Shown: positions 1 to 20,915 of the stretch, piece by piece
Layout of the letters: the number at the start of each line of letters is the position of its first letter
Position numbering within the stretch: the first letter of the stretch is position 1
IMG/VR virus record: IMGVR_UViG_3300009194_000044
Coordinates: 1 to 26,910 of that record
Direction: 5' to 3' (one strand)
Length of the DNA stretch: 26,910 nucleotides
DNA from: a virus
Made by a program: the position numbers and the translations under genes
The notes under the pieces: model-generated
What the model was told of the DNA's origin: nothing
The model's database searches: none
The model's input: only the letters and a program-made list of their open reading frames with translations

Positions 1-967
1 CAGTAAATGTTTTTCTTAATAGATTGCGGCAATCCGCATGAACGCACCACCCAAAATGAGATGCTGTTTTGCGCATAAAGTAGCGATCGCTTACATCATG
101 TTTTCTTAAGCGTCTAACCGTTCGCTGCATTCGTTGTTTTATTCGCTTCCTCAACCGGGTGTGTGTTGGATAAAACTTATATCCAACAAAGTCAATTCCT
201 ATTTGAACCGGTGCAATACGAACGTTATTCTTTATTGTCAGCTTCAATTTGTCAATTTGAGGATTAAGCTTTGACAAAATTTCGTGCGCATCCTCCTTGC
301 TTTCTAATATGAAAAGCAAATCATCCATGTATCGAAGGTAATGCTTAACATGTGCAACCTCCTTAACCCAGTGGTCGATATCAGATAAAACAAGATTGGC
401 GAAATACTGAGAGGTGTAAGCCCCAATCGGCATACCCTGATCGTGCACATCAACAATTGCATCAATCATGTGAAGTGTCTTTTTGCACTTAATAACCTTG
501 CGAATCTTGTCTTTTGCAACAGCAATGTCAATAGATTGATAAAACTTCTTAATATCAACTTGCAAGTAATAAGCATAAGGGTTCTTGCGTAGAACCGCTT
601 GAATACGTTTTGCCAGTAAAGCGACACCTCTACCAGGTATGCTCCCATAAGTATCAGCTGTAAACTTTTTTAATATTAGCGGCCCGATTATATTCATTAG
701 GCAATGGTGCAGCACCCTGTCTGGATAGAAACGAGGACAGTGAATCTCTCGCTTTTTGGGCTCGTAAACCGTAAAAGAATAAAGACTACCAAATTGGTAA
801 TCTTCGTTTATAAGTGATTGCTGAATCTCGTTAACACATGACTCCTGGTTATCAATGAACCATTGCCGCTGGCGGGTCATTTTCTTGCCTTTTACAGCCT
901 TGTGAGACGCTTCTCTTATATTGTCTATGTCGCATATTTGTGTCCATAATTTCCCGTAACGTTTCAT
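1..967 (-). CDS. DGR reverse transcriptase (3' end outside window)
   Basis: The gene starts at the ATG at 967 and stays open for 322 codons to the left edge. It was read directly from the minus strand. It copies the template-repeat RNA into adenine-mutagenised cDNA that replaces the variable repeat in the fibre gene. Visible motifs are a KKREI..R/DRVLHH block (about residues 71-88), SIPGRG (109-114), motif A QVDIKKFY with catalytic D138, IGAYTSQ (181-187) and YMDD (213-216). The IGxxxSQ form is typical of DGR reverse transcriptases; group II intron and retroviral enzymes usually have QGxxxSP-like sequences. The C-terminal thumb is only partly present. It lies downstream of the TR on the same strand, the usual DGR order. 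The sequence before the ATG is A-rich with no Shine-Dalgarno. The family call is secure because a matching TR/VR pair is adjacent. Confidence 0.96.
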   Translation of the reverse strand, partial: MKRYGKLWTQICDIDNIREASHKAVKGKKMTRQRQWFIDNQESCVNEIQQSLINEDYQFGSLYSFTVYEPKKREIHCPRFYPDRVLHHCLMNIIGPLILKKFTADTYGSIPGRGVALLAKRIQAVLRKNPYAYYLQVDIKKFYQSIDIAVAKDKIRKVIKCKKTLHMIDAIVDVHDQGMPIGAYTSQYFANLVLSDIDHWVKEVAHVKHYLRYMDDLLFILESKEDAHEILSKLNPQIDKLKLTIKNNVRIAPVQIGIDFVGYKFYPTHTRLRKRIKQRMQRTVRRLRKHDVSDRYFMRKTASHFGWCVHADCRNLLRKTFT

Positions 968-1180
968 TTTTTTTACCTGCTTCACTCCGGCCAATTTTCG
1001 CAAAATACGCTACTCACAAGCCTTTCCGTAGTTTATGTTTTGCTGTTTTTACAGCAAGGATTTGACGCCCGTGCATTTATTTAATGAAGTATTTGAGCCG
1101 GCGACCCCGTTGACGTTGTTCGCATTGCCAACGTTGCTCGCATTGTTAGCCCGGCCAGCACCAGCCAACAGCCTCGAACC
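968..1180 (-). ncRNA. DGR template RNA (TR plus spacer to RT)
   Basis: This non-coding stretch holds the 87-bp TR followed, in the transcribed direction, by a 126-nt spacer to the reverse transcriptase start. In known DGRs the TR plus downstream spacer forms the RNA bound by the reverse transcriptase and its accessory protein and used as template. A hairpin is visible in the spacer: TTGCTGT at 1040-1046 and ACAGCAA at 1051-1057 around a 4-nt loop (7 bp). The exact RNA ends cannot be read from sequence. Plus-strand ORFs crossing this stretch are antisense shadows. Confidence 0.8.
1094..1180 (-). repeat. DGR template repeat (TR)
   Basis: This 87-bp segment aligns without gaps to 2821-2907. 78 positions are identical and 9 differ. 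On the minus strand every differing position is an adenine in this copy. The segment has 17 adenines, mostly grouped in AAC/AAT codons when read in the frame of the target gene: N123, N124, N127, N130, N132, N133, N135. Such AAY codons are the classic TR design because mutating the two adenines reaches many amino acids without creating stops. Similarity ends sharply on both sides. Confidence 0.96.
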
Positions 1181-1204
1181 GCCGTGGCGACAAACCCTGT
1201 ATTG

Positions 1205-1408
1205 TTATTTAACTCTGATTATCCTGGCATCTCGCAACACTGGCTGGTCGTCAATGCCGGCTTCAAAAAACCTTATCAGCACCGGAGGCCCTTTGTATTT
1301 TCGCCTGTCCGCAATGCCGGCAGAAGTTGCCGGGAATATTACCTTAGAGCCATCAAATTCAACCCGCTCGCGGATCCCAACGCTCATTGCTTGTATTAGT
1401 GTGGTCAT
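1205..1408 (-). CDS. Small hypothetical protein between DGR target and TR
   Basis: This 67-residue protein is unrecognised. Its ATG overlaps the TGA of the 611-residue DGR target as ATGA (1405-1408), which suggests translational coupling, and its TAA lies 24 nt before the TR. No hydrophobic segment or signal peptide is seen. It is mixed in composition and strand-rich in appearance, unlike the helical-bundle accessory protein Avd (about 120-130 residues) of Bordetella-type DGRs. Position makes it either a fibre-associated cap or chaperone, or a DGR accessory factor; neither is shown by sequence. The overlap and conserved-looking placement make it likely to be real. Confidence 0.65.
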   Translation of the reverse strand: MTTLIQAMSVGIRERVEFDGSKVIFPATSAGIADRRKYKGPPVLIRFFEAGIDDQPVLRDARIIRVK

Positions 1409-3240
1409 CTATATTTGTTTACAAAGATTTTTAGTTGAAAATAAGCCTTATTCATTATAGACTTAATTATCTGGTCGGAATACCCTCCATTGGCTGTTGT
1501 TTGAAAACTCAAGTAGTTACCTGAACTAATTGGCACGCCGTCGGCATCGTGCTGTATAACCCCTGCGGACTTCCAAACAAAATACTCTCCCCATAATGCG
1601 GCTGGTATCCATTCAGCTGATGGCACCCTGCTATCATCAAACATAACTCCAACAGTATAACCTGATGAGCCTGAAAAAGTATCCACACTGTTTTCTGCAA
1701 CAAAAGACTCCCCAGGTGCAATAGTCCGAGACCTGTAGGTTATGTTTTCGTTACCACGATTAAGGTAGGTTCCACCTGCCTCGAGGCCAGCAGTTGACTC
1801 AATAGAAAGATACGGCATAGGCGTTTCACGCACCCATACAACATTTAAAGAATTTGGATCATCAATTGCCAAAAGAGTAGAACCGGAAGCTGCATCGCTA
1901 AATGTAGTTCCTTCAACCGTGACAATCACAATAGAATTATTTCCAAAGTTTTGATTGTCGTAAACAACGGATCCTTTGACAATATAAAAACCAAGAGGCA
2001 AAATATTTGATGGGGAATATTCCACACCAACAGTGTCATCGTTCCATAGCGATGCAAAGTAGCCTTTAAATTTGCTGGCAAACTGAGCAAAAAAGGCATT
2101 AATATTAATCTCGCTCGGATTAACGGACACTATTTTACTGAGTATCTCTCCCTGCATTGACGCAGATTGATCGTCAAGGCATATCTCGTTATTCAACACG
2201 GTAACGCATCCTGATGCTGTGTTTTCATCCCAAGTGCCAGGTTGCTGAGAAGAATCATCCATGATCGGGATATTCACAGCAGGAGGCAATGCACCCAAAT
2301 AAATGCCAGGGGCGCGAACACCTGGGCCGTCAGGATTCAGAGTAAAATCTCCTTTCTCGGGGTTATTCATCACCTGATCTGATGCAAGAGGCGTGAAAAT
2401 GCAATCTACAAAAGTCATTCTATTGGCTCCAGGCACACCTGCTGAGTCCATTCCAGCCACAAGAGAATTGTATCTTTCTGTTGATGTCGCGCCATTGACT
2501 GGGATTTCAACATCGTTATAGTAGAATTTGCAATCTGCGCACACTACGCAACCATTCAATTCAATTCCGGTATCATCTACAAAGAAATCCCAAGCCCCAA
2601 AAACAGAAGTATAGATTATTCCTGAATAACCACCGAGTCCTTTGGCTCGTTGAGCTATTGGCACACCGTAGTAAGTGTTGTGTTGAGCTCCGCTGTAACG
2701 AACGTAAAGTCTGATTGGATAATTTTCATTACTTTTGAGGCGTGAGAACACATTATACGAGACGGCGGTAGTGCCGCCTGCCGCCCCATAGTAAACCCCA
2801 GTCTTATCCAAAATCACAGGTGAGCCGGCGACCCCGTTGACGTAGTGCGCATAGCCAACGATGCCCGCATGGGAAGCCCGGCCAGCACCAGCCAACAGCC
2901 CCGAACCTGTCCATACCTTTACTTCTGAATTTCCCGCCGCACAATTCTGGATAACCATGTTTAAATGCGTAAACCCATAAATCAAATACGTATCGGCACC
3001 ATCGAATACAGCAGCCCCCATGTAATCGCCTCGTATAACACACGCATGGTTACCATCAGCCATATCTTCGCTGAAAAAACCAATACAAACAATTTGTGAT
3101 GGTCTGGACGAACCACTTTCCCAGGCACGGCGAAGCGTTTCAAAAGGCTTTTGTTGAGTTCCATCTCCTGAAACATCCGAGCCTTTTTCATGAACATAGA
3201 CGGCTCCTGATATATTTGTTCTCCACTTTAATGGCTTCAT
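1405..3240 (-). CDS. DGR-diversified tail fibre / beta-helix adhesin
   Basis: This 611-residue protein probably forms the distal receptor-binding fibre. The N-terminus has a VYVHEKGSD...GDGT..KPFETL pattern (residues 14-35), typical of the start of right-handed beta-helix (pectate-lyase-like) repeats. No signal peptide is visible. The variable repeat encodes residues 112-140. Compared with the template, the changed residues are G114 (template R), S123, H124, I127, Y130, H132 and Y133 (template N), and G126 (template S). The variable segment lies near the N-terminus, not at the C-terminal C-type-lectin position usual for DGR targets. The gene is the last large gene of the tail-fibre operon, two bases after the 81-residue gene. 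The fibre role is inferred from position and fold; the DGR-target role is seen directly. Confidence 0.9.
   Translation of the reverse strand: MKPLKWRTNISGAVYVHEKGSDVSGDGTQQKPFETLRRAWESGSSRPSQIVCIGFFSEDMADGNHACVIRGDYMGAAVFDGADTYLIYGFTHLNMVIQNCAAGNSEVKVWTGSGLLAGAGRASHAGIVGYAHYVNGVAGSPVILDKTGVYYGAAGGTTAVSYNVFSRLKSNENYPIRLYVRYSGAQHNTYYGVPIAQRAKGLGGYSGIIYTSVFGAWDFFVDDTGIELNGCVVCADCKFYYNDVEIPVNGATSTERYNSLVAGMDSAGVPGANRMTFVDCIFTPLASDQVMNNPEKGDFTLNPDGPGVRAPGIYLGALPPAVNIPIMDDSSQQPGTWDENTASGCVTVLNNEICLDDQSASMQGEILSKIVSVNPSEININAFFAQFASKFKGYFASLWNDDTVGVEYSPSNILPLGFYIVKGSVVYDNQNFGNNSIVIVTVEGTTFSDAASGSTLLAIDDPNSLNVVWVRETPMPYLSIESTAGLEAGGTYLNRGNENITYRSRTIAPGESFVAENSVDTFSGSSGYTVGVMFDDSRVPSAEWIPAALWGEYFVWKSAGVIQHDADGVPISSGNYLSFQTTANGGYSDQIIKSIMNKAYFQLKIFVNKYR
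2821..2907 (-). repeat. DGR variable repeat (VR)
   Basis: This 87-bp copy of the TR lies in frame within the fibre gene (codons 112-140). The 9 differences, all at template adenines, fall in 8 codons; codon 123 carries two. The last 22 nt in the coding direction, GC-rich and ending at 2821, are identical to the TR and would act as the IMH-like initiation end. A short GGCGG/CCGCC hairpin lies 43 bp further on (2764-2778) but is inside coding sequence and may be chance. Confidence 0.96.
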
Positions 3241-3241
3241 A

Positions 3242-3487
3242 TCACTTCTGTGTTACAGTGTAATTAACTCCTTTTCGCGCCCAGTTGTGGTCATTGATGT
3301 AAAGTTGCTTTTCAACAACTACCACGTTTTCGTTTTCGTAAGTTCGCTCATCCGGGCGTTTGATGCTATCAAGCGTTGGCTCAGATAAATTAGGCCTTAC
3401 GGTTTCCTGTATCCAGTCACGGGCAGCATCTGATTGCTGTACCGTTTCGGTATCCCAAAATACTCCTGGTATTACTTCTATCATCAT
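3242..3487 (-). CDS. Hypothetical tail-fibre-operon protein
   Basis: This 81-residue protein is unrecognised. It begins with a short hydrophobic stretch (MMIEVIPGVFWDT), followed by a charged middle and a C-terminus with alternating beta-like residues. It sits between two fibre genes in the same direction, ending one base before the DGR target's start, so it is cotranscribed and probably a virion or fibre-assembly component. A near-palindromic 17-nt motif (3498-3514) lies just upstream. It has no transmembrane helix and no catalytic motif that I can identify. Confidence 0.65.
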   Translation of the reverse strand: MMIEVIPGVFWDTETVQQSDAARDWIQETVRPNLSEPTLDSIKRPDERTYENENVVVVEKQLYINDHNWARKGVNYTVTQK

Positions 3488-3497
3488 TTAACTATCG

Positions 3498-3514
3498 TTT
3501 AATCAATGTTTAAC
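3498..3514. promoter_or_regulatory. 17-nt motif, copy upstream of the 81-residue gene
   Basis: The plus strand reads TTTAATCAATGTTTAAC, close to the 17-mer seen before the capsid, chaperone and 23489 genes. Here the orientation is opposite to the gene it precedes and it overlaps a stop codon. The motif is nearly palindromic, so orientation may not matter. Function unknown. Confidence 0.35.
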
Positions 3515-4213
3515 TACTCTGTGAACGCAACTGCAACTCAATGCCCACAGCTGCCAATTCGCTATCATTTGTGCGTGTAATTTCCCAAGTAAGGATATCA
3601 TCGGCCACTATCTCAAGACCAACATCACCGGCGGCAACTGGTACCTGTACACCACCGGAGTAGGTAACTACCAGACTGGCCACGTTGCGGAAAACTACCC
3701 GCTCAATGACTCCCGGGCCAAGCATATTAATATCTTGAACCATATAAATACCCGTGCCAAAATCAAGCGTGTAAGCCTTTTTGTTTATCTCCTCACGCAG
3801 GCCAAGAACATCATCAATGGCTAAATCGCCCAGTACGGTGCCCTGGTATGCCCAATGTTCCGGGTGCGTTTCCGGATTTTCGCCCGCCGGTGCATCCTCT
3901 TTGAGTCGGTACCATTTTCACTCTTGAAGAAAGTATCCGTGCTTTCGGCATTAATATAACTCACATACTCTGCCTCAGTCTCGCTATATACATAATTCTT
4001 AAGCGGATCGTAAGGCCCTGAGTTACTCCCACCGGTGGCATCCTTCTTATCCATCTTCGCATCCAGCAGCCCCTGCAACCCCTCCACCTGGGCACTGGGT
4101 ATGTTATCATCCTTATGAAAGAATGAATCCAGCCAGTCCCAGAATTGCGCCTGGGTTGGTTTGCTGCCGGTGCGAAACCAGTTCTTTATAGTGTTTATGG
4201 TTTGTTTTGCCAT
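3510..4213 (-). pseudogene. Tail-fibre-type protein, reading frame broken near 3914-3919
   Basis: The first frame runs from ATG 4213 and encodes MAKQTINTIKNWF..GSKPTQAQFWDWLDSF, a start that resembles fibre or collar proteins of Bacteroidota phages, through a coiled KMDKKDA region to FFKSEN. It then enters an Arg/Lys-rich tail unlike the rest and stops at 3821. The -1 frame from about 3917 is open without interruption to 3510 and encodes a sensible continuation (WYRLKEDAPAG..., later LGLREEINKK, then a beta-rich end). Joining the frames at the four-A run (3915-3918 on the complement) gives about 234 residues. No canonical slippery heptamer or strong downstream stem is visible, so a one-base loss in the A run, or a sequencing error, is likelier than programmed shifting. 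The 77-residue ORF from 3743 is the tail of this gene, not a separate one. Confidence 0.7.
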
Positions 4214-5019
4214 TACATTTTTATTAAAGCATATTCAAAACTTATATTCTGAACACTTGAAGTTGCTTCCCTTATATGCACAACAAAAGAGGTAGTGCTT
4301 TTTTCAACAATACTCCAACTTATACCTCCTGAATTATGTACAGTATCTTCGTTCCATATTATAGAACCAACAACTAAATAGTTATTATCAGGCAGTGTTA
4401 TTCCGAGGCTTATTGTAGTCCTACCATCGCCAGAAATATCCCCTATGTTCTTACTACCTTTTGCTAATACCTCAAGCTTTTTGTCTAATTGATTAGTTAA
4501 TCCTGAAATTTCACTTATCTCATGAGATGGATTGGATGGATGCACGTATTTATTAGCATTTTGCGCAATCCCTGAAAGTTTTAATGCTTCTTCCTCAGTA
4601 ATAAGACGGCTTCCCAAAACTTTGTCAACCTTATTTTGATATAGAGAAAGCAAGTTTACAATCCTATTACCGTTTAAGGTACTCCATGCCACATTGTCGG
4701 CTGGGGTAGTTGATGTACCGAATTCAGCATGATAGGTAATTTCTGTTTCAGTACCACTACCCACTGGATAATTCGAAATAGTCTCTATTACTCTTACATC
4801 AGTTTGTATCGTACCCCCCTGGAAAGGCATTAACTTTCCTTTAATTATCACATATCCGGGGGTAGCTGATGAGCCAGACACCTCGCATCCGGACAATATA
4901 TAATTATCACCTCCTAATGCTGTGAATTTTTCAAGCATTGCATAAGATGCCTGCATAAAAGCAAGCAAGTCGGTTGTCAAAGGAACATCCCTTGTGTTTT
5001 CTAATACTATTTTATTCAT
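4213..5019 (-). CDS. Tail fibre protein (proximal)
   Basis: This 268-residue protein opens with an N-terminal baseplate-attachment-like segment (DVPLTTDLLAFMQASYAMLEK). A beta-rich domain follows (residues about 40-120), then a central region with ITEEEALKLSGI.QNANKY and a HEISEISGLTNQLDKKL helical stretch typical of phage fibre trimer stalks, then a beta-rich C-terminal part (about 195-268). Its ATG lies seven bases after the stop of the gpI-like gene and its stop overlaps the next start by one base, as expected in a tightly packed tail operon. The fibre call rests on composition and position after gpJ/gpI. Codon use is more AT-rich than the baseplate genes, a common feature of exchanged fibre genes. 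Confidence 0.7.
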   Translation of the reverse strand: MNKIVLENTRDVPLTTDLLAFMQASYAMLEKFTALGGDNYILSGCEVSGSSATPGYVIIKGKLMPFQGGTIQTDVRVIETISNYPVGSGTETEITYHAEFGTSTTPADNVAWSTLNGNRIVNLLSLYQNKVDKVLGSRLITEEEALKLSGIAQNANKYVHPSNPSHEISEISGLTNQLDKKLEVLAKGSKNIGDISGDGRTTISLGITLPDNNYLVVGSIIWNEDTVHNSGGISWSIVEKSTTSFVVHIREATSSVQNISFEYALIKM

Positions 5020-5025
5020 AGCGCG

Positions 5026-5505
5026 TTAGTTTATGTCGTATCGTTTCCCTGCCAATTTGTAATAATCCACCAGGGCCCTCATGGCATATATATCTCCCTG
5101 CGAGTATGTATATGGGGTTTTCACAATAAAATCAAAGTTGCCGCCGTCGTAAGCACTGCGGTTGTGTATGAGCAGGGCCGGATCGGTGCGCGGTTGTACT
5201 ATCACCGGCTCTTCATCTGTGCGGCGGTGTATGAGTGTTACTACTTCGCCCCCGGCATCTTGTATGTAGATGCGGCGGAGTTGTGTATCGAAGCGGTCGT
5301 TTAGGGCATCCTCCAAATAACACACCTGCCCGGTATGCTGAAGCTTGTAAATATTCTGGTTGCGGTAATTAGAAAATCCTGACGCTCCGGCATACAATGT
5401 TTTGAGAGGTGTTAAAATGGCTTTCAAATACCCCACAAACACCGCTTTTCTCAAACTCTTAGGAGTCAGCCAGGCAATTACCGTATCAAAATTCACATTA
5501 AACAT
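5026..5505 (-). CDS. Baseplate gpI-like tail protein
   Basis: This 159-residue protein follows the gpJ-like gene with an 8-bp overlap and precedes the fibre genes, the place of P2/Mu gpI-type proteins that link baseplate to fibres. It has an N-terminal amphipathic part (VIAWLTPKSLRKAVFVGYLKAIL), then a beta-rich core with NDRFDTQLRRIYIQDAG and a C-terminal helix DIYAMRALVDYYKLAGKRYDI. The function comes mainly from order and size. The sequence is not diagnostic, so it could also be another small baseplate component found in Bacteroidota phages. Confidence 0.6.
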   Translation of the reverse strand: MFNVNFDTVIAWLTPKSLRKAVFVGYLKAILTPLKTLYAGASGFSNYRNQNIYKLQHTGQVCYLEDALNDRFDTQLRRIYIQDAGGEVVTLIHRRTDEEPVIVQPRTDPALLIHNRSAYDGGNFDFIVKTPYTYSQGDIYAMRALVDYYKLAGKRYDIN

Positions 5506-6319
5506 TGGCTCTGTAGTTAATGGTTAAATCCTCGTCTGCAACTGTTAAGTAACCGGCATTAGGTACTACTTTCCCGTCCACATTTTGCCATTCGTTGAGT
5601 GCATACTTTGTTTCACAACTTAGTATAACCGGGATATCAACACCTTCAGTCTCTTGCAATGCATCTACAAGACTGGCCGGTATAAACTCGCCGTTGAAAG
5701 GAAGATTCTTGATGAAATTCTTGATTGCATCTTTAGCCGGTTCCTGAGAACTATCTGCCAACAACAAACCGTTCTCATCAATTAGCAACGGGTCATAGAA
5801 TACATCAAGCGTAATCCTGAGGCTGTCACCGACATCGCTTATGATGTTTATTTTAACACCGGCATCTTTTATGCGTTGTATGTATTCTCCAAATGGAGTT
5901 ATCTCGTTTGGATCCGCAATTGACAAGGGAGCCAATTCTCCACTATCCTCTTTGGCTACTTTCATGTATAACGTACCATTTATTTCATCAACAGCGGCAT
6001 GCGAAACAATCTGAGCACTCTCATCAATTTCCGGATAATAATCGGTGCCATCCACCAAACCATAACCATATTGAAACGCACGGGCCATTTCTGCATACCA
6101 ACGTAGGTTGTGCGTTTTTTGAGATGCCAGTATTTCGTTCACTTCAGCCTTATGCTCGTCAAATAAAGTTTCGTGTATCCATATAGCCACTGCTACCACA
6201 TAGGCAAATAGTCGGTATATAGCAGTTTTACTTGCAGAGTATATCTTCGCGCTCAACGTATCATCGGCGGCGATGGTATCCAACATTTGCTGGTGTATTT
6301 CTTTTACTGTTCGTGCCAT
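5498..6319 (-). CDS. Baseplate wedge protein, gpJ-like
   Basis: This 273-residue protein has a long helical N-terminus: MARTVKEIHQQMLDTIAADDTLS, then a hydrophobic AYVVAVAIWIHETLFDEHKAEV. Baseplate J-like segments follow (PFGEYIQRIKDAGVKINIISDVGDSLRITLDVFYDPL). The pattern and the location between LysM-like/lysis genes and gpI match gpJ, which forms the arms of the contractile-tail baseplate wedge and binds gp25. It overlaps the gpI-like gene by 8 bp, suggesting coupled translation. The hydrophobic stretch at about residues 37-50 is characteristic of this family and need not be membrane-spanning. Confidence 0.75.
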   Translation of the reverse strand: MARTVKEIHQQMLDTIAADDTLSAKIYSASKTAIYRLFAYVVAVAIWIHETLFDEHKAEVNEILASQKTHNLRWYAEMARAFQYGYGLVDGTDYYPEIDESAQIVSHAAVDEINGTLYMKVAKEDSGELAPLSIADPNEITPFGEYIQRIKDAGVKINIISDVGDSLRITLDVFYDPLLIDENGLLLADSSQEPAKDAIKNFIKNLPFNGEFIPASLVDALQETEGVDIPVILSCETKYALNEWQNVDGKVVPNAGYLTVADEDLTINYRANV

Positions 6320-6328
6320 TGTATAATT

Positions 6329-6430
6329 TTAATAATCCTCATTACATGGAAAGCATACAAAAACCAAAGGGCAACCTGTACAGGTGTTAAATCCGCAGTC
6401 CTGAGACCTCTTTATTTTTTTAAGCTTCAT
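6329..6430 (-). CDS. Cys-rich mini-protein with two CxxC motifs
   Basis: This 33-residue ORF has its ATG overlapping the TGA of the LysM-like gene as ATGA (6427-6430) and ends nine bases before the gpJ-like start. It has five cysteines: C12, C17, C20, C26 and C29, in the arrangement CTGC (17-20) and CFPC (26-29), preceded by a basic N-terminus (MKLKKIKRSQ). Paired CxxC motifs suggest zinc binding or a compact disulphide knot. It fills the only gap in this part of the operon and is coupled at one end and closely spaced at the other, which argues that it is real. Function unknown; a small baseplate or spike-tip zinc protein is one possibility. Confidence 0.65.
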   Translation of the reverse strand: MKLKKIKRSQDCGFNTCTGCPLVFVCFPCNEDY

Positions 6431-6930
6431 GAAACAACAAAATCAATTCCTACGGCCCAATAACCTATACCCTCAGGAGTTATAATATTGGCTTCCTCTG
6501 CCGACATGCCTGTAGCCGGCTTTATATTCCTGCCATTAAGGTAATCAACCACCAGCCTGTCAATCTCTTTGTCTGATTTTACAAGCACTCCTGGCTCAAC
6601 ATCATCGGTAAGACCAATGCCGTTTTCTTTAACCAGGTTCTTTATCCCCTCAATATTTCCATAAAGCTGTATTGCGAGGTCAAATATATTTTGGCCTGAT
6701 GCCACAAATGTTTCCTTATATGGTTTTGATAAAGGCGGGGTAACATCAGCCGGTTCATAGTCCGAATATTTTCGGGTATCATCTGCCTGCAATTCAACTC
6801 CTGCCTCCAGCGTGTCAGTAAAGCCAATACCGTTCGCAACAGCAAGGTCATAAATTGCCTGTATGTGGCCGTACTCCAGCACGGCCACATCAAACAAGTT
6901 CTCACCCGGTTTCACTACACGTTCAGCCAT
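6427..6930 (-). CDS. Tandem LysM / tail protein X-like protein
   Basis: This 167-residue protein contains two similar units: residues about 9-50 (GENLFDVAVLEYG...NGIGFTD..EAGV) and 79-120 (GQNIFDLAIQLYG...NGIGLTDD.EPGV). This is the LysM-like pattern of P2 gpX-type tail proteins, which bind peptidoglycan or sit near the tail hub. A proline-rich linker separates them, and the C-terminal 45 residues (NIITPEGIGYWAVGIDFVVS) form a distinct end. It starts on the last base of the holin-like stop and couples to the Cys-rich mini-gene by ATGA. Both a structural tail role and a peptidoglycan-targeting role fit. Confidence 0.75.
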   Translation of the reverse strand: MAERVVKPGENLFDVAVLEYGHIQAIYDLAVANGIGFTDTLEAGVELQADDTRKYSDYEPADVTPPLSKPYKETFVASGQNIFDLAIQLYGNIEGIKNLVKENGIGLTDDVEPGVLVKSDKEIDRLVVDYLNGRNIKPATGMSAEEANIITPEGIGYWAVGIDFVVS

Positions 6931-7313
6931 TACTTATCCTTTTTTACAGGAGTTCCACGCAAAAGGTAACTACCAAAAAAGAAACCCAGAACCATAATGA
7001 AGGCCGTGGAAATATTCCAATCACTCACAAGATTCTCAACGAAACTGGCGGCATCTTCATTAAAAAAATGCAGGATAATTACGGCCCACATGAGTGCAAA
7101 GAAGTTACCAACCACTACGTATGCAATCATTCGCCTGGCTTTACTTCGTTCAGAGTTCTCGCTCAGCGTACTGTGAACAAATTCCGCAATCTTATCAGAT
7201 AGCTTCATGTTCATTTCAGCTTTCTCTTCCTTTGTAAATGCCAGCTTATCCACTCCGCTGCTCACAGAGTCGAATATTTTATCAATGTTTAATTTTCCTC
7301 CAAATAGTCCCAT
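6930..7313 (-). CDS. Three-TM-type holin
   Basis: This 127-residue protein starts with an amphipathic glycine-rich segment (MGLFGGKLNIDKIFD), followed by a charged helix (EEKAEMNMKLSDKIAEF) and Arg/Lys-rich SERSKARRMI. Two clear membrane helices follow: about residues 64-82 (IAYVVVGNFFALMWAVIIL) and 101-118 (NISTAFIMVLGFFFGSYLL). The architecture matches the GTA/phage 3TM holin family. It would open the inner membrane so that the muramidase encoded three bases upstream reaches peptidoglycan. Placement next to the endolysin supports the call. Confidence 0.8.
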   Translation of the reverse strand: MGLFGGKLNIDKIFDSVSSGVDKLAFTKEEKAEMNMKLSDKIAEFVHSTLSENSERSKARRMIAYVVVGNFFALMWAVIILHFFNEDAASFVENLVSDWNISTAFIMVLGFFFGSYLLRGTPVKKDK

Positions 7314-7316
7314 AAC

Positions 7317-7928
7317 TTATACCCTTTCTGTCCACCCTGGGACAAATACTTCTTGTTCAAGATTTGCATTTGTGATGTTGTCGTATCGCTGAAGCTGGTA
7401 GTAGTTCATCCAGCGAAGCAGCCACTTTACAAGCTTTTCACGGTTTCGCGTGTTAAACCTCGATGTTTTAAGGTACTCACGCAGCGTACCAATAGTAACC
7501 GGCCCTATTCCACCATCTACCACAATATCGGGATAGTCGCGCTGGTTTCGGTTCAGCTTATTGAGAGCCTTTTGCAAACACTCTGCACCATAAGCAGTAC
7601 CCATATTCACAGAAGTATCAAACAGTTCGTCGGCAATCTCCTGGGGCATTTGGTTGCATTTTTGTTTGTCCCAGAAATTGTACTGATAAAATGAAGCCAC
7701 GTAAGCCTCCAGCCTGTTATCCCTGTTCATATTGCCTTCCCAGCTTCCACGCTCAACATTCTCTTTGATTTCATCAATGATATCCCAGCCGGGCCAATCG
7801 GGCCAATGAACACGCGAAATGCCTTTATATGTTTCGCCGCCTTTGTCGGCTTTGTGGTTTGAATATCCGCCCTCTATTTTGAGGGTCTCCGCAAATGCTT
7901 TCTGAAAATCTGCCATAACATTATTCAT
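7317..7928 (-). CDS. Endolysin, GH108-type muramidase
   Basis: This 203-residue protein carries the GH108 N-terminal signature EGGYSN..ADKGGETYKGISR, with E19 of EGGY as the expected catalytic acid. A helical core follows, then a C-terminal peptidoglycan-binding-like region (CLQKALNKLNRN...DGGIGPVTIGTLREYL). It cleaves the glycan backbone of the host wall for lysis. There is no signal peptide, so it needs the adjacent holin. The ATG at 7928 overlaps the gp25-like gene's end by 8 bases; an alternative ATG four codons later (7916) would remove the overlap. It is located within the baseplate gene block, so a virion-associated role is also possible. Confidence 0.88.
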   Translation of the reverse strand: MNNVMADFQKAFAETLKIEGGYSNHKADKGGETYKGISRVHWPDWPGWDIIDEIKENVERGSWEGNMNRDNRLEAYVASFYQYNFWDKQKCNQMPQEIADELFDTSVNMGTAYGAECLQKALNKLNRNQRDYPDIVVDGGIGPVTIGTLREYLKTSRFNTRNREKLVKWLLRWMNYYQLQRYDNITNANLEQEVFVPGWTERV

Positions 7929-8220
7929 TTAAGTCATAATCCAATTTAAAATCACCGGATTTGTCAAACTCCAGTGTTTTTACACGATACCCGTCTGCCT
8001 TTAATCCAACAGTGATATCTCTTTTAATCTCTGCCAGCGTATTGTTTTGCTTTTTCAGGAAATTGGGAAGCCCTACACCAAGAGTAGGCGACTCCTTAAG
8101 CTCTCCTTTATTCAACGTAAGAAGCATTGAAACATGCTGGTCATCGCTTGGCCCTGTTGCAAAATCACCGTTCTCGCACAATACATCATCGTTGGCATCA
8201 AGTAGTATATCGCTTCTCAT
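7921..8220 (-). CDS. Baseplate wedge gp25-like protein
   Basis: This 99-residue protein contains GDFATGPSDDQHVSMLLTLNKGELKESPTLGVGL, the conserved region of T4 gp25/P2 gpW-like baseplate wedge proteins, including the ExxxxPxxGxGL stretch thought to contact the sheath. Size is normal for the family. It shares one base with the spike gene upstream and overlaps the endolysin start. In contractile tails gp25 helps start sheath polymerisation together with gpJ, encoded about 1.6 kb downstream. Confidence 0.85.
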   Translation of the reverse strand: MRSDILLDANDDVLCENGDFATGPSDDQHVSMLLTLNKGELKESPTLGVGLPNFLKKQNNTLAEIKRDITVGLKADGYRVKTLEFDKSGDFKLDYDLNE

Positions 8221-8789
8221 TAGTGTGTAACTTTGTCGTTCTCAATTTCCGTAAAATCTCCAATCTCCTTACCCGCAACCGCCGTGTTTAATGCTGCCTG
8301 CAATGCGCTCGGATTTCCGTTCCCCGGCTCGTTGATTGGTGCGCCGGTAAGAATATTCAATATGGCCTCAAGTATTGCATTGTTTTTCTCAAGATTGGAA
8401 ACAAGTGTGGGCGTAATGGTTAAACCACCATTTTCACCGCCATTGATTTCAATCAGGTCAGCTGTTACAATAAAAGTTGAATTGCCAAGTTTGATCTCAA
8501 TGCTCTCCGGGTCATCAGCCGTTAACACGTAAGTATCGGTACTGATATTTTCTACCACCGCCACCAACACCCTGCTCCCCTGCTTTGGAAATACGGTTAA
8601 AGTATTCTCAGATGGCTCTGAAACGGCATTTAAGCGAACATCGTAGAGCGGTGGCAACTCCTGCCTTTCAACCGTACAGGTTTTAGTGACTTTGTCCACC
8701 TCCGAAACCGTTCCCTGGCTTACGAAAACAGGCACAATCTTTTTGGCTGCGCTCTCAATGGCTTCTTGTATTACGCTCTCAAGACTCAT
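8220..8789 (-). CDS. Baseplate spike / gpV-like protein
   Basis: This 189-residue protein has an OB-fold-like N-terminal half: VSQGTVSEVDKVTKTCTVE, then FPKQGSRVLVAVVEN, then TDTYVLTADDPESIEIKLG. A beta-strand region with GNSTFIVTADLIEINGG follows, as in the needle-forming C-terminal domain of P2 gpV/Mu gp45-type spikes, then a Gly/Asn/Ala-rich end. It overlaps the hub gene by 4 bp (ATGA type) and the gp25-like gene by one base. Order hub-spike-gp25 is normal for the central baseplate of contractile tails, where the spike pierces the outer membrane. Confidence 0.78.
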   Translation of the reverse strand: MSLESVIQEAIESAAKKIVPVFVSQGTVSEVDKVTKTCTVERQELPPLYDVRLNAVSEPSENTLTVFPKQGSRVLVAVVENISTDTYVLTADDPESIEIKLGNSTFIVTADLIEINGGENGGLTITPTLVSNLEKNNAILEAILNILTGAPINEPGNGNPSALQAALNTAVAGKEIGDFTEIENDKVTH

Positions 8790-9757
8790 AATTTAAAGCT
8801 CAAAGTATTTTCACGTTCATAACCACTATCAAGCCCGTAACGGATCACTGTCTTTTCAATTCTGTAACGACCTTCTCTGTCGGGCTCCTCCCGGTCAACT
8901 ATCTTTAAAGTATCCCCGGCATGAGTTCGAGGGTACGCGAAGCCTGTAACAGAACCGTTGTAACCATCAAAAGCCAGTTTTTTGTACTGCTCTTCGGTGG
9001 CTTTCTTTAATTCAGCCTCCGATAGGGGGCCAAAGTTCAGAGTTCTAATACTGACGTCGCGCCCCTCGGGCCCCACTTCAAATGTCAGTTTCTTTCCGTT
9101 TCTTAAATTCGATATCCCTTTCACGCGTACCTTTACATCCTCCGCACGCTTGTATTTCAGGTCGTTCTTTTTCACATTGTCATAAAACGTATAGGTGTGT
9201 TCGTCTCCGGTCTGACCGAGGTCATAACCAAAGTGGCAATTCAATACACCATCCTTTACCCAGGAGTAAAAACCAAAAGAACGTTGCAACTCCCAAAGCA
9301 CCCGGTAAGTACTCACGTTCAATATTTCAAAATTGCCCAGCTCTACATCGGGGCAACTAACCTCCAGGCCATCGGAAACATAATGGAGCAATGTTTTCAG
9401 GCTCACAGATTTCCAACTATTATTGAAGCTGTTTTGCTTCAGCGGGTAAAACTCATCGTCGCAATGCAGTACCAGGGGGGCACCACTCTCCACCTCCGAA
9501 ATGAAGCCCGTAAATTCCTGATAATACCTTCCGTCAAACCCCAGCTCCACTTTTACCGGATCACCAACTTTGATATACTCAAGCACTCCTTTCCCTGCCA
9601 GCTCTTTGTAGTTGCGTGGTAATACAATACGTGCTTTATTACCAAGCTCACGCACGCTTTCGGTTATTTCCACCTTGTTAAGGGCTTCAAAAACCACAAA
9701 CCGGCTGGCATCTCCAACCGTTATGCGTCCATTTGGCTCATAGTAATACAGCTTCAT
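8786..9757 (-). CDS. Baseplate hub protein (gpD / late control D-like)
   Basis: This 323-residue protein is beta-rich from the start (MKLYYYEPNGRI..FVVFEALNKVEITESV), with GDPVKVELGFDG..EFTGFISEVESG and later WELQRSFGFYSWVKDGVLNCHFG, features of the P2 gpD/T4 gp27/Mu gp44 hub family. The C-terminal part (GDTLKIVDREEPDREGRYRIEKTVIRYG) is the usual last barrel. A hub trimer connects the tail tube to the spike encoded next. It overlaps the spike gene by 4 bp and begins one base after the preceding gene. Length is normal for gpD. Confidence 0.82.
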   Translation of the reverse strand: MKLYYYEPNGRITVGDASRFVVFEALNKVEITESVRELGNKARIVLPRNYKELAGKGVLEYIKVGDPVKVELGFDGRYYQEFTGFISEVESGAPLVLHCDDEFYPLKQNSFNNSWKSVSLKTLLHYVSDGLEVSCPDVELGNFEILNVSTYRVLWELQRSFGFYSWVKDGVLNCHFGYDLGQTGDEHTYTFYDNVKKNDLKYKRAEDVKVRVKGISNLRNGKKLTFEVGPEGRDVSIRTLNFGPLSEAELKKATEEQYKKLAFDGYNGSVTGFAYPRTHAGDTLKIVDREEPDREGRYRIEKTVIRYGLDSGYERENTLSFKL

Positions 9758-9758
9758 A

Positions 9759-10412
9759 TCAAAATCCTTGTGCTAAAAATTCGGTTGGCTCAATAGAGAT
9801 GGCAGTAAAAGCGAACTTCACGGTATCCACGTAGCCCTCAACAAAACCCACATCCAGTCCTCCATCAATAAAAACCTCCTGTATGCCCAAATCATCAAAC
9901 AGCCGCCCTGATACATGGAAAGTTCCTGACTGCCTGAACATGGCGTCAATTTCCTTCAGGTGAGCCGATGGGTATTGATGGTCTGTAACATCTACCAATA
10001 TTCCGCTTACTTTTATTTCCCAGGGCTTGAGTCCGAAATGCTCTACCACTTCGTGCTCACTCCTGTCAATGGGTGTTCGTTTCACATGCTTTCCACGCGT
10101 AAACCTCACCATCGGAGGAGGTGCCAGAAATTTCTGAGGCTCATTGTCGCGGCTTTTTACAAACGGAAAAGCCGGATGGCCGTTTTCCATCGTGGGTATT
10201 CCAAAATGAAAAACAGCATCCGGGTTTCTTGAACTCTCAAACTTCATGTCGGCAAAGGAGGTATCACTCTCAGGATATACAGGTATGTTCGACAACATAA
10301 AGTTGCTGACCTCAAATCCTGCCTTTATTAGTCGGGGCGCCACTTTCATGGCCGAATAACCAAAGGCATTGTTGTACCTGTCTAATATATCGTTGATGCT
10401 AAGTGTTGCCAT
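9759..10412 (-). CDS. Tail protein, probably DUF6046-like
   Basis: This 217-residue soluble protein resembles, as far as I can recall, the DUF6046 group restricted to Bacteroidota phage tail modules. The middle contains TPIDRSEHEVVEHFGLKPWEIKVSGILVD, followed by YPSAHLKEIDAMFRQSG and a beta-rich C-terminus. It sits between the tail chaperones and the hub. That is where a tape measure would normally be; in this phage the tape measure is on the other strand about 10 kb away. A role as a hub-proximal or tube-end adaptor fits its position, but no catalytic motif is visible. Its first 14 bases overlap the end of the -1 frameshift ORF. Confidence 0.6.
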   Translation of the reverse strand: MATLSINDILDRYNNAFGYSAMKVAPRLIKAGFEVSNFMLSNIPVYPESDTSFADMKFESSRNPDAVFHFGIPTMENGHPAFPFVKSRDNEPQKFLAPPPMVRFTRGKHVKRTPIDRSEHEVVEHFGLKPWEIKVSGILVDVTDHQYPSAHLKEIDAMFRQSGTFHVSGRLFDDLGIQEVFIDGGLDVGFVEGYVDTVKFAFTAISIEPTEFLAQGF

Positions 10413-10976
10413 TTCCTTTTTTCATGCCTAACAGTCCTTTTTCCGCAAGCCACTCGACCTGTCTGTATTTTTCCATCCAGACACTGTCGGGCAGATCTTC
10501 AGGAAAAGGAATGTTTAAATAATAACTTATCAGGGCATTGGCCTGACGGATGAAATTCGATATCTGCCTTTTGCTACTATCCTCGTCTTCGACAATGTCG
10601 ATGCGAGGATAGTAGCCTATAAGTTTTTTACAATCGACTTACGAACCGGAATGAGCTCGGCAATTGCATCAAAGGCACCAAAGAAAAGTGCGTCATCAGC
10701 TTTCACCTGTTCTTTACCGGTCAGCAGACAGGAGTTAATTAGCAAAGTTTTTGCTTTGTCCGGATTCTTATCCAGCCACTTTTCAAACTCGCTCATCGTC
10801 TTTCGATCGGGTACCCTCACAATCACGTCAAGGTATTTGTCCCCGTTATCATCCATTGGCAAGCTGGCCATTTTCACTTTGTCCGATCCGTAGCGTTCTT
10901 TCCATGCCTTAATCATTTCGGCGGTAACGCCATCGGGCAGGTTTGAATTTGATTGCTGTTTTGATTGTTCAGCCAT
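10399..10976 (-). CDS. Tail assembly chaperone, -1 frameshift fusion (G-T type)
   Basis: The in-frame chaperone (119 residues) stops at 10617. At 10629-10623 the message reads A AAA AAC, an ideal bacterial -1 slippery heptamer in the zero frame GTA AAA AAC. After slipping, the -1 frame continues through CTT ATA GGC TAC and stays open for about 70 codons (LIGYYPRIDIVEDED... to ...KKGNGNT) until TAG at 10399-10401, giving a fusion of roughly 190 residues. In many phages the shifted product links tape measure and tube. The extension has no start codon or spacing of its own, so it is best explained as a frameshift product. Confidence 0.85.
10573..10629 (-). promoter_or_regulatory. Programmed -1 frameshift signal: slippery site plus stem-loop
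   Basis: The slippery heptamer AAAAAAC occupies 10629-10623. After a 6-nt spacer (10622-10617) comes a perfect 13-bp stem, GCTACTATCCTCG (10616-10604) with CGAGGATAGTAGC (10585-10573), around an 18-nt loop. The loop can itself fold (TCGAC/GTCGA). Spacing and stem strength are those expected of a frameshift stimulator. The stem is not needed by either protein sequence alone. Confidence 0.88.
10617..10976 (-). CDS. Tail assembly chaperone, unshifted product (G type)
   Basis: This 119-residue protein lies immediately after the tube gene, the standard location of the short tail chaperone that coats the tape measure during tail assembly. It starts with a polar, Gln/Ser-rich segment, then KAWKERYGSDKVKMASLP, VIVRVPDRKTMSEFEKWLDKNPDKAKTLLINSCLL and a short hydrophobic C-terminus. 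The DRKTMSEFEKWLD..P.KA pattern resembles chaperones of Bacteroidota phages. It ends with the frameshift site. A 17-nt motif shared with other late genes lies 12 nt before its ATG. There are no enzymatic motifs. Confidence 0.8.
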   Translation of the reverse strand: MAEQSKQQSNSNLPDGVTAEMIKAWKERYGSDKVKMASLPMDDNGDKYLDVIVRVPDRKTMSEFEKWLDKNPDKAKTLLINSCLLTGKEQVKADDALFFGAFDAIAELIPVRKSIVKNL

Positions 10977-10988
10977 TTGAAGTAGGTT

Positions 10989-11005
10989 TTTAAATGTTGA
11001 TTAAA
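10989..11005 (-). promoter_or_regulatory. 17-nt motif before the tail chaperone
   Basis: In the gene direction this reads TTTAATCAACATTTAAA and ends 12 nt before the ATG at 10976. The same 17-mer, varying at two central positions, precedes the major capsid and 23489 genes at 13-14 nt. The constant distance to the start codon suggests a translation-initiation or late-control element; it does not match the host -33/-7 consensus. Confidence 0.5.
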
Positions 11006-11011
11006 CAATGA

Positions 11012-11431
11012 TTACGCGTTGTTATAGTCGATGTCAAGCACAAACAAGTTGTACTGTTTTTTGACATCCATATCTCCGGGAACGTCGCGCCCGGTGTCCT
11101 GGAATTTAACCAGCAGAGTGTCGTTTACAATGTCGTTGTCTTCATTCACAAACGTTACATTGATTTTGAAAGGCTTAATCTTAAGAACACTGGTTCCTGC
11201 GGCCTTTTCTATTGCACTGGCAGATGCCAGGCGAAGGGTCATGGTTGCCGAGTTGGTTTCCTTACCCATGCTGTAACTGGTCATCTTGTTACTCCCGAGG
11301 CTGTGATTGGCCTGATGCTCCTGTTCGGTTGCATAGGTCAGTTCGGTAACCTCATAAGACATGGATCCAAACATGGCAATATTCACATCACCACTATCGT
11401 AGGCTTTGCCGTTTTTAGTAATCAGAGACAT
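11012..11431 (-). CDS. Tail tube protein
   Basis: This 139-residue protein directly follows the sheath gene with a one-base overlap and precedes the chaperone pair, the invariant tube position. The sequence is beta-rich: GDVNIAMFGSMSYEVTELTYATEQEHQ, then MGKETNSATMTLRLA, then KPFKINVTFVNEDN, then KKQYNLFVLDIDYN. This is compatible with the stacked-hexamer tube fold shared with Hcp/gp19/P2 FII. Length is typical. It forms the inner conduit for DNA. Confidence 0.8.
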   Translation of the reverse strand: MSLITKNGKAYDSGDVNIAMFGSMSYEVTELTYATEQEHQANHSLGSNKMTSYSMGKETNSATMTLRLASASAIEKAAGTSVLKIKPFKINVTFVNEDNDIVNDTLLVKFQDTGRDVPGDMDVKKQYNLFVLDIDYNNA

Positions 11432-12696
11432 TACAAGCTTGTTTTAAGATTAATACTACCCTGAATTTCATTGATGGTACCGGTAGGCACCACGGTAAAT
11501 GAAACTTTCAGGACTTTATCTCCTGTGAGAAGATTGCTGTTGGGATCCACCTTGGTTTCTCCTCCGGAAATCTCACCGGCCGTAACCATGGCGGCAAACT
11601 CTGAATCTCCAATACCCTCAAAGTACTTACGAATACCCACAGGCAGTAATCCGGTGGACGCATCCACGGGAACAACGGTTTTCACCTTTGGCAGCAATGC
11701 TGTTCTAAGGCGGCGAGCTGCCTTAGCATAAGTGAGTCCAAGAGCAATGGTGTTTTCGTTCATATACCCGTCCTGATCCACAATTTCGGCGGCACACACA
11801 TGGTCGTTATTGAAACGATACCCGCTGATACCGGTGTAAGAAATGGCGAATACATAACCATACTGGTCGAAAGTGGAAAGGTCTGCCTCCACTTCGGTAA
11901 TCTTTTTGTGGCTGCTCAATCCGGCCACCAACCACTTACCCTTTGGGGCATCACTTAAATCAAGCGACTCCACTTCACCAATGGATTGATTTACGGCAAT
12001 ACTGGCAGAAACACCAAGCATGGTTCCCACATCGGCAAATTTTTGCGCATCACCAACGAGGGTTTCCGCGTAGCCAAAGTCTTGAGCAATACACACAGAA
12101 ACATTGGTATAAGGAATGGTAATACCCTCCACCTGGATATCTTTGAGGTCAAGAACCCCGGCCACGCTGTCGGCAATGCCACGTCCCTCAATGAAAATAT
12201 TCAGGGGGCGGTCAGTTTCCCAGGACCAGTCATGCAGTGTTTGTGCAGCAGGAATGGCATTCCTCACCACTTCCTCCATACCATCCACCACAGTTGGCGC
12301 ATACAAATCGTCAGGATTGTAGGCAACAGCCAGGCGGCGAATCTGCCCATTGGCACCTGCCACAAGTGACTGGCCATTGGTATTCAGCATGGTTTCCATA
12401 TCGCTGGCCACAGGAGCCACCAACACAAATAGCGTGGTACCTTCACCGGCCATGCGGTAGAATTCCGAGATGTGGCGGTACACCCGCACATCATTATCCG
12501 TATCATAAGCCTCGTCGATGCCCAACAATTCGGCATCCTTAAGACTTGTGATTTCCAAGACATCCCCATTGGCGAAGCCGGTGACTCCCTCTGCTGCTGC
12601 TACCGACGGGCCGTTTACCAGCAAACCGCTAATAGCATCGGCATTGTCGTTTACCGCTGCACCAATAGTGCCTTTATTAATAATCACTCCTCTCAT
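11431..12696 (-). CDS. Contractile tail sheath protein (DUF2586-like)
   Basis: This 421-residue protein starts MRGVIINKGTIGAAVNDNADAISGLLVNGP and contains FYRMAGEGTTLFVLV, IPAAQTLHDWSWETDRPLNIFIEGRGIAD, FDQYGYVFAISYTGISGYRFNNDHVCA and a C-terminal beta handshake-type strand (VSFTVVPTGTINEIQGSINLKTSL). These features match the DUF2586 tail sheath group of Bacteroidota and Mu-like phages. The sheath contracts to drive the tube through the envelope. It is followed by the tube gene, overlapping by one base, and preceded by a two-base gap. Confidence 0.88.
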   Translation of the reverse strand: MRGVIINKGTIGAAVNDNADAISGLLVNGPSVAAAEGVTGFANGDVLEITSLKDAELLGIDEAYDTDNDVRVYRHISEFYRMAGEGTTLFVLVAPVASDMETMLNTNGQSLVAGANGQIRRLAVAYNPDDLYAPTVVDGMEEVVRNAIPAAQTLHDWSWETDRPLNIFIEGRGIADSVAGVLDLKDIQVEGITIPYTNVSVCIAQDFGYAETLVGDAQKFADVGTMLGVSASIAVNQSIGEVESLDLSDAPKGKWLVAGLSSHKKITEVEADLSTFDQYGYVFAISYTGISGYRFNNDHVCAAEIVDQDGYMNENTIALGLTYAKAARRLRTALLPKVKTVVPVDASTGLLPVGIRKYFEGIGDSEFAAMVTAGEISGGETKVDPNSNLLTGDKVLKVSFTVVPTGTINEIQGSINLKTSL

Positions 12697-12698
12697 AA

Positions 12699-13118
12699 CT
12701 ACTTAGCTTTTTCGATAACCAGACGGGCCCTGTCCTTTGTTACCAGTTCAACCTCCTTTTTGGGGCCACTCAACTGGGCAAGGTTCTCGTTGGTGAAATA
12801 CTCACCCTTGCCATTGCGCCAGAGTTTTGAAACGCCCAGACGCTTCATTATTTCCAGCTGCTTTTCGGCATCCTTTACCTCACTGTTTGGCTTTTCCTCC
12901 GGAGTTTCCTTTTCGGTATCTTTGGGGTTTTCCTCCGGGGCCTTCTTAGGAGCTTCCTTCGAAGTCTCTTCAGGCTTTGGAGTCTCCTCCGAATTTTCCT
13001 GCTCCTTTTCATCACCCGCAGGAGGAGTGGTGGTATTGTCAACCACGGGCTGATTCACGCCCTGTTGCTTGTCAGCCGCCTCAGGGGCCGGCTGTTGGTT
13101 TTTCTTTTTTTCTGCCAT
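12699..13118 (-). CDS. Low-complexity Pro/Glu/Lys-rich head-tail region protein
   Basis: This is a 139-residue protein. Residues 1-85 are disordered and repetitive, rich in E, P, K, T (ETPKPEETSKEAPKKAPEEN and similar). The last 50 residues form a compact-looking domain (EIMKRLGVSKLWRNGKGEYFTNENLAQLS..., then VELVTKDRARLVIEKAK). That C-terminal pattern resembles the small Mu gp35-like domains found between capsid and sheath genes, where it may act in head-tail joining. The position agrees. The acidic/basic repeat could reflect recent repeat expansion. Confidence 0.6.
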   Translation of the reverse strand: MAEKKKNQQPAPEAADKQQGVNQPVVDNTTTPPAGDEKEQENSEETPKPEETSKEAPKKAPEENPKDTEKETPEEKPNSEVKDAEKQLEIMKRLGVSKLWRNGKGEYFTNENLAQLSGPKKEVELVTKDRARLVIEKAK

Positions 13119-13120
13119 GA

Positions 13121-13345
13121 CTATTTGAATTTGTCTAATGCGTTAATAATTAAAGTGACAAGTACCGAACCGGCCGCCCACAGACCACTGATAACTTTAT
13201 TCCGCGTTTCGAGCGTATTGACACGTACGGAAAGGTCTTCATCCTTTTCCATCTTCTTTTCAATGTTCTCAACGCGCGAATGAAGCAGAATGAGAAGCTC
13301 TCGTTGCGAGAGCTTTCTCATATCTATTTGGTCATTGGTGGACAT
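13121..13345 (-). CDS. XhlA-like small membrane protein, holin-associated
   Basis: This 74-residue protein has an N-terminal coiled-coil region (about residues 10-48, RELLILLHSRVENIEKKMEKD...RVNTLETRN), then one membrane helix (about 50-68, VISGLWAAGSVLVTLIINAL) and a basic end DKFK. The coiled coil plus C-terminal transmembrane arrangement is that of haemolysin XhlA-type proteins, which assist holins. It lies between capsid and sheath genes, away from the endolysin-holin pair at 6930-7928, so a structural or superinfection-related membrane role cannot be excluded. Confidence 0.6.
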   Translation of the reverse strand: MSTNDQIDMRKLSQRELLILLHSRVENIEKKMEKDEDLSVRVNTLETRNKVISGLWAAGSVLVTLIINALDKFK

Positions 13346-13365
13346 GGATAGTACTATTAAAACGA

Positions 13366-14427: not shown

Positions 14428-14441
14428 TGTCTTGTTAACTG

Positions 14442-14458
14442 TTTAAAGATTGATTAAA
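14442..14458 (-). promoter_or_regulatory. 17-nt motif before the major capsid gene
   Basis: In the gene direction this reads TTTAATCAATCTTTAAA, ending 14 nt before the capsid ATG. It matches the copies at 10989-11005 and 23459-23475 except at the two central positions. It lies in the 64-bp gap after the protease gene. Confidence 0.5.
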
Positions 14459-14491
14459 TAAGGGTTACAAGCCTGTTAAGAGCTGTAAGAT

Positions 14492-14962
14492 TTACAATTC
14501 GGGTTCAACGTCAAACTGCTCTTTGTAGAGCGATTTGAACTTCTCAGGATCCTCTTTGGGCATCTTCTCCAAATCGGCAGCTGCTTTCTCCTGGTAGTCT
14601 TTCCACTTCCAGTCTTTACGCTCCTGTTCTTTGCCCTGAGAACCCTGTGCGCCTCCGCCCTGAATGCTGCCACTTACCGGGGTGTAAGCATTCATGTCGG
14701 CAAAAATGCCGTTTAACTCTTCAAGGCCAAGCTTTTCGCCACGGGCAATGTACTCGTCGCGCTTTTCCTTGTTAATTTTTTTGGAGGCAATGGCGGCATC
14801 TACTGCCTGCTCAATGCTCTTTTTCACGAGTGCCTGAGCATCCTCTTTAGCCTTATCGCCCTCGGCCATTTTGGCATCAAGTGCGGCCATTACTTCGGCG
14901 TCGGTACTTTCGTCGGTCACGCCCTGCAAATTGTACTTTGCGATGATCTGCTTTTTGTCCAT
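14492..14962 (-). CDS. Nested scaffold protein from internal start
   Basis: Codon 215 of the protease gene is an ATG preceded by an extremely A-rich stretch (AAACAAAAAAAG), the preferred initiation context in this phylum. Translation from it would give 156 residues (MDKKQIIAKYNLQG... onward): helical, charged, with Gly/Gln-rich and Lys-rich parts, as in capsid scaffolds. The same protease-with-nested-scaffold design is known in lambda (C/Nu3) and Mu (I/Z). Independent expression is inferred, not shown. Confidence 0.55.
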   Translation of the reverse strand: MDKKQIIAKYNLQGVTDESTDAEVMAALDAKMAEGDKAKEDAQALVKKSIEQAVDAAIASKKINKEKRDEYIARGEKLGLEELNGIFADMNAYTPVSGSIQGGGAQGSQGKEQERKDWKWKDYQEKAAADLEKMPKEDPEKFKSLYKEQFDVEPEL

Positions 14963-18212: not shown

Positions 18213-18218
18213 CCAATG

Positions 18219-18235: not shown

Positions 18236-18245
18236 TGCCGGTAAA

Positions 18246-19490: not shown

Positions 19491-19504
19491 GGAGTGGCCC
19501 CACA

Positions 19505-20914: not shown

Positions 20915-20915
20915 T

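Follow-up and report, generated by a model that had tools for sequence, protein, structure and literature searches.

What does a reverse transcriptase do beside the tail genes of a phage, and which part of which protein does it alter? The question is raised by a viral record of 26,910 bp from IMG/VR (IMGVR_UViG_3300009194_000044, probably a fragment), referred to here over its whole length as the window. A preliminary description of this DNA had proposed a diversity-generating retroelement (DGR) in a Mu-like tail operon. On the minus strand the locus reads, from 5′ to 3′, an 81-aa gene (3487-3242), the gene for a 611-aa target protein (3240-1405), a 67-aa gene (1408-1205), a template repeat (TR; 1180-1094) and the reverse transcriptase (RT) gene. 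The evidence leaves us highly confident that this is a DGR acting on a tail gene of a Mu-like phage, probably one infecting Bacteroidales, with the randomised segment early in a likely beta-solenoid. The mechanism is already known; the position of the variable repeat (VR) and its probable scaffold are unusual.

The TR (1094-1180, 87 nt) and the VR (2821-2907), both read on the minus strand, aligned without gaps and were identical at 78 of 87 positions. All nine mismatches fell on the 17 adenines that the TR carries on the minus strand, which is the coding strand (hypergeometric P = 4.7e-8), bearing out the earlier claim of an 87-bp repeat pair, with the VR inside a fibre gene, that differs at adenines only. 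The pair is the sole long direct repeat within positions 1-5000. Identity between the two copies ends exactly after a shared GC-rich 3′ end, GGGGTCGCCGGCTCA, located at 2821-2835 in the VR, inside the coding sequence, and at 1094-1108 in the TR. By analogy with phage BPP-1, the VR copy is a candidate initiation of mutagenic homing (IMH) region, and the TR copy may serve as its IMH*-like counterpart.

The RT gene (2-967, minus strand) would start at an ATG at 967, as in L002, a 9.4-kb IMG/VR contig; a TTG at 1003 is also a possible start. The corresponding open reading frame (2-1003) is open to the contig edge over 334 aa and contains the motifs YMDD and IGAYTSQ. Its translation matched the profiles RVT_1 (7.8e-17) and phrog_1423, reverse transcriptase (5.6e-105). 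The closest solved structure was the 8ub7 series (5.3e-43), which the database labels just 'Reverse transcriptase' and which we take to be the Bordetella DGR enzyme; in the same comparison GsI-IIC, a group II enzyme, scored 2.5e-12, and chains labelled as retron-type or retron RTs scored 4e-8 to 3e-6. In a small tree, with two group II RTs and no retrons in the sample, the window RT was placed with the RTs of BPP-1, crAss-like phage and Hankyphage and was split from the group II RTs at 100/100. By both measures the closest relatives of the enzyme are DGR RTs, and group II RTs stand apart from it, consistent with the preliminary assignment. One relative, L071, has an RT (5432-6850) with NFTDD instead of the usual YxDD, adjoining a DGR that shows VR differences between contigs that are nearly identical.

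The repeats might instead be an ordinary duplication with chance substitutions, lying beside an unrelated RT of retron or group II type. The window RT does match group II and retron profiles, weakly and always far below the cut-offs. Against this, the adenine specificity given above recurs at four other loci, and the RT groups with DGR RTs. We regard a chance duplication as already refuted by the adenine bias across loci together with the comparison of L071 and L075 described next, and the probability that we leave to it is negligible.

Related genomes provided an independent view of the DGR, as the preliminary description had suggested they might if variation were restricted to TR adenines. 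L002 is 84% identical to the window over 4.2 kb, and its target is 91% identical. Its TR differs from that of the window at 1 of 87 bases. Within L002, TR and VR are mismatched at 12 positions, every one a TR adenine (12/12, P 1e-11), and the VRs of the window and L002 differ from one another exclusively at TR adenines (14/14, P 1e-13). Three further and more distant relatives with homologous targets have TR/RT sets of their own, in which TR/VR differences fell at adenines in 18 of 19 cases (L004), 14 of 14 (L066) and 12 of 13 (L071); L065 was the same as L066 over the 12.3 kb compared. L071 and L075, which come from different metagenomes, differ at 5 of 5170 aligned bases; their TRs are identical, and all five differences lie in the VR at TR adenines. 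DGRs of this target family have therefore been active recently, and the window's own copy may be active too. The DGR proposed in the preliminary description is therefore supported by the adenine-only TR/VR differences, by the placement of the RT and by variation among relatives that is confined to TR adenines. Of the two outcomes that the preliminary description named as refuting it, neither was found. As a separate observation, the end of L079 and the start of L075 are contig breaks within the VR, as expected if multiple VR variants in a sample stop assembly.

A second hypervariable stretch was present in the window at 2625-2730, where the sequence diverges strongly from L002, synonymous sites included, and where L003, another relative, resembles L002. 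We rejected this stretch as a second VR because synonymous changes also occur and no template was present in the sequence examined; it is likely to be a recombination mosaic and not the product of a DGR.

Could the VR be a record of past diversification, with the system now dead in the window phage? Decay does occur in this family. L003 still has the target with its VR, but of the TR just the first ~30 nt are left (10060-10095), and its 101-kb record yielded no RT; judged by its sequence, this locus is a fossil DGR. The window RT, moreover, is unreadable to its end. On the other side, that RT is open over its 334 aa with its motifs intact, the TR is intact and nearly identical to the L002 TR, and there are no non-adenine changes between the TR and VR of the window. 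A decayed system in the window phage is accordingly very improbable.

In the target frame, adenine substitution of the window TR never yields a stop codon, and the number of possible protein variants is at its maximum (~2e9, versus 1.5e6 and 9e3 in the other frames). For five TRs from the window and its relatives, the actual frame was in every case (5/5) both stop-free under adenine substitution and the richest in protein variants. The residues that the TRs encode form regular pairs with single small or hydrophobic residues between them, as RANNANNVNNANNVNGFAS (L066) and RANNASNVGNANNVNGVAGS (window) illustrate. Inverted repeats flank the TR in L066 (14 bp) and in L071 (13 bp); the window has a weaker, predicted stem that would close the TR region (1055-1199, minus strand; 1186-1199 pairing with 1055-1070). 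Folding of the TR RNA was significant in L066 (z -3.7) and not significant in the window (z -1.5) or in L071.

The VR occupies residues 112-140 of 611, in frame; in the window and in all relatives, L002, L004, L066 and L071 included, it falls within the N-terminal third of the protein. Surveys of DGRs found that VRs are nearly always C-terminal and on a C-type lectin fold, and tied the C-terminal placement to keeping cis elements outside the coding sequence (PMC8144416). The window target does not have this canonical placement. Its N-terminal VR, with a scaffold that is probably not a lectin, is the least ordinary feature of the locus and was not mentioned in the preliminary description.

What, then, is the scaffold? 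The N-terminal domain of the target (~1-330) is solenoid-like and opens with the motif GSDxxGDGTxxxPfxTLxxA, which across the family takes the full form Y-V-x(4-6)-G-S-D-x-x-G-D-G-T-x(3)-P-[FY]-x-T-L-x-x-A. PDB matches to this start motif were weak and included a phage tail fibre, a tail spike and a xylosidase, and also asparagine-tRNA ligases. Seven of nine family members matched phrog_4577, a tail protein, and three of nine matched DUF1565 weakly, while the window target itself matched no Pfam family (E 0.1). AlphaFold models of the full target from 6 sequences had a mean predicted local distance difference test (pLDDT) score of 47; residues 1-333 modelled from 9 sequences reached a mean of 54 and were good only from ~157, with ~157-300 at pLDDT 60-95. 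When the N-terminal model was compared with known structures by VIA-align, the best rows were almost all beta-solenoids (Z 6.4 over 87 residues, and 6.3 over 202 with a PL6 lyase). Pectin lyases, PL6 lyases, tailspikes and pentapeptide proteins also recurred in the Foldseek lists, all at E >=0.6. In the full model the C-terminal region (~393-540) was weakly cupin- or jelly-roll-like by VIA-align. From these models, the N-terminal domain of the target is probably a right-handed beta-solenoid. Because the start motif precedes the VR, the modelled solenoid follows it and the gap between them is short, the VR would itself sit on the solenoid.

An alternative placement of the same DGR within the target has to be weighed here, namely that the protein contains an inserted C-type lectin-like domain, cryptic or miniature, which holds the VR, so that the scaffold is the usual one. 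Roux et al. 2021 report that annotated VRs are systematically on C-type lectin folds and anticipate that VR domains not yet characterised will prove to be new variants of that fold (PMC8144416), tentaclins provide a precedent for a VR in an N-terminal C-type lectin (PMC10743442), and the VR falls in a low-confidence part of the AlphaFold model. In the window target, however, no Pfam domain was matched, two crAss-like phage DGR targets gave no match in a profile comparison, and no C-type lectin chain stood among the VIA-align rows, which is not proof of absence. In addition, just ~75 residues separate an invariant GDYxGAAxxDG motif (71-81) from the start of the modelled solenoid at 157, and the protein looks solenoid-like on both sides. 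By our own reasoning this gap is short for a C-type lectin domain and disfavours such an insertion, and we consider a hidden lectin unlikely.

Several observations weigh against a DGR that randomises a solenoid. The VR itself is modelled at pLDDT <40, VIA-align Z scores <8 can be generic, and Foldseek searches of PDB and BFVD gave no match below E 0.6. L004 and L071 each have one TR/VR difference that is not at an adenine. The RT C-terminus lies beyond the contig edge. Finally, no match to BPP-1 Avd or Pfam bAvd was detected in the window, L002, L004, L066 or L071, in a search that had no near positive control and in which the window and L002 both end inside the RT gene. The preliminary label of a "complete-looking" DGR consequently holds only in part, the RT being cut off by the contig end and no Avd having been found. 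We judge it somewhat probable that, across a family of gut-type phages, DGRs randomise solenoid coils, or loops, in the opening part of a tail protein with a right-handed beta-solenoid fold. The family would span a Mu-like phage and others whose contigs reach 169 kb, two of these reading TAG as a sense codon.

Under this model the adjacent RT would copy the TR RNA (1094-1180) with errors at adenines, and the resulting cDNA would replace the VR (2821-2907) in the tail-protein gene. Some ~10 codons would be randomised in this way, mostly as pairs between fixed small residues (A-NN-A-SN-V-GN-A-NN-V-N) and with no stops. The randomised segment, early in the likely right-handed beta-solenoid, would probably form a binding surface for a variable host-surface structure. 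As a tail cluster with sheath, baseplate hub and Mu-type portal lies nearby, the natural inference is that the target has a putative receptor-binding or host-surface-binding role; it may be the distal fibre, with diversification changing the host range, as the preliminary description proposed.

Comparison with characterised systems shows which features of this DGR are shared. The BPP-1 DGR (mtd/avd/TR/brt) likewise has the order target, small gene, TR and RT on the same strand, adenine mutagenesis and a tail target, and its RT is homologous to that of the window (32% over 95%). The BPP-1 VR, in contrast, is at the 3′ end of its target gene; the window target was unrelated to the BPP-1 target by search and is probably not a C-type lectin, and no Avd homologue was found in the window. 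Hankyphage, a Mu-like transposable phage of Bacteroides (PMC6199706), resembles the window phage, a probable Bacteroidales phage, in its Mu-like structural genes and in having a DGR by its tail genes. Its VR spans residues 2188-2225, at the C-terminus of a large C-type lectin protein (PMC6199706), whereas the window target has no tblastn match in a phage collection containing Hankyphage records; the two RTs are 31% identical. In tentaclins (PMC10743442), which also occur in phages with a tail sheath, the VR is likewise close to the 5′ end of its gene. The tentaclin protein starts with a DUF6273/C-type lectin domain at the N-terminus, and Ig domains (Fn3/Ig) come after it (PMC10743442). The window target, with its lack of a Pfam match and the DUF1565-type start motif of its relatives, does not have this architecture. 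Among named phages, the crAss-like DGRs (cr55_1, LMMB, zeta and epsilon groups) have some of the closest RTs (cr55_1, 40% over 96%). In these phages the VR is part of a C-type lectin domain of the target (PMC12386605, PMC11054128); the two such targets compared showed, as noted, no profile similarity to the window target.

The same surveys suggest that hardly any fold other than the C-type lectin can tolerate massive variation (PMC8144416). An open-access literature search, with subscription papers and supplements outside its reach, found no DGR target on a beta-helix. If true, a target family of this kind, with its VR placed N-terminally on what is probably a beta-solenoid, would weaken both survey conclusions, that on the fold and that on C-terminal placement, since it recurs in several unrelated phages and its VR still varies where genomes are nearly identical. 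The family would also constitute a new natural randomised binding scaffold.

How widely is this module distributed? Searches by tblastn with the targets of the window, L066 and L067 found no match in 50,697 named phage records. The relatives are IMG/VR contigs of 7 to 169 kb and one Muribaculaceae metagenome-assembled genome (L067), the latter being the single hit of a pattern scan of 84,980 species genomes; no RT was found in L067. A pattern scan with the TR adenines left free matched L002 only. L078, a more distant relative, has no TR in the locus and no RT in the record. In four distinct phage types (the window with L002, L004, L065/L066, and L071/L075) the DGR acts on a single family of homologous proteins, and at the same site. 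This spread across phage types, together with the L003 fossil, indicates that the module passes between phages of quite different kinds and that it can disappear from them.

Two of these phages appear to use a modified code. The RT genes of L004 and L066 contain in-frame TAG codons (in 10920-11025 and 8640-8840, respectively) and can be read through only if TAG has a sense meaning; in L004, translation of an in-frame TAG as Gln brings back the GxxxSQ motif. This suggests stop-codon recoding in the L004 and L066 phages (167-169 kb), a likeness to the TAG-recoded RTs of crAss-like phages, where TAG recoding has been reported for the zeta group (PMC12386605, PMC11054128).

Two small genes on the minus strand accompany the target. 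The 81-aa gene directly upstream (3242-3487) occupies the same place in L002, L003, L004 and L067. The 67-aa gene between the target and the TR (1205-1408) overlaps the target stop by 4 bases, is kept in L002 and L003, and had no Pfam or PHROG match. A reading of it as an Avd was not supported, given that it has no Avd match and is retained in L003, where no RT was found; it is possibly a tail accessory gene rather than part of the DGR. Its product contains repeated S-x-G motifs (AMSVG, TSAG) and has a counterpart at 9840-10040 in L003.

The Mu-like character given to the window in the preliminary description stood for the structural genes, which included Portal_Mu (1.6e-73) and Phage_Mu_F (2e-15), with sheath and baseplate hub genes near the target. 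No transposase of the MuA type was found among the genes scanned in this fragment. The structural genes are arranged in divergent operons at 1-15604 and 15757-24046, the minus strand carrying those for tail, capsid and protease and the plus strand those for terminase, portal, F protein and tape measure. Within the Mu-F-like head protein (19505-20815), residues 348-400 match CdiA_C (8.8e-6), a domain of the contact-dependent inhibition toxin type that is here fused to a structural protein. The far end of the window (24315-26018) carries a Bro-N antirepressor-like gene and a superinfection-exclusion-like (tRNA_anti-like) gene.

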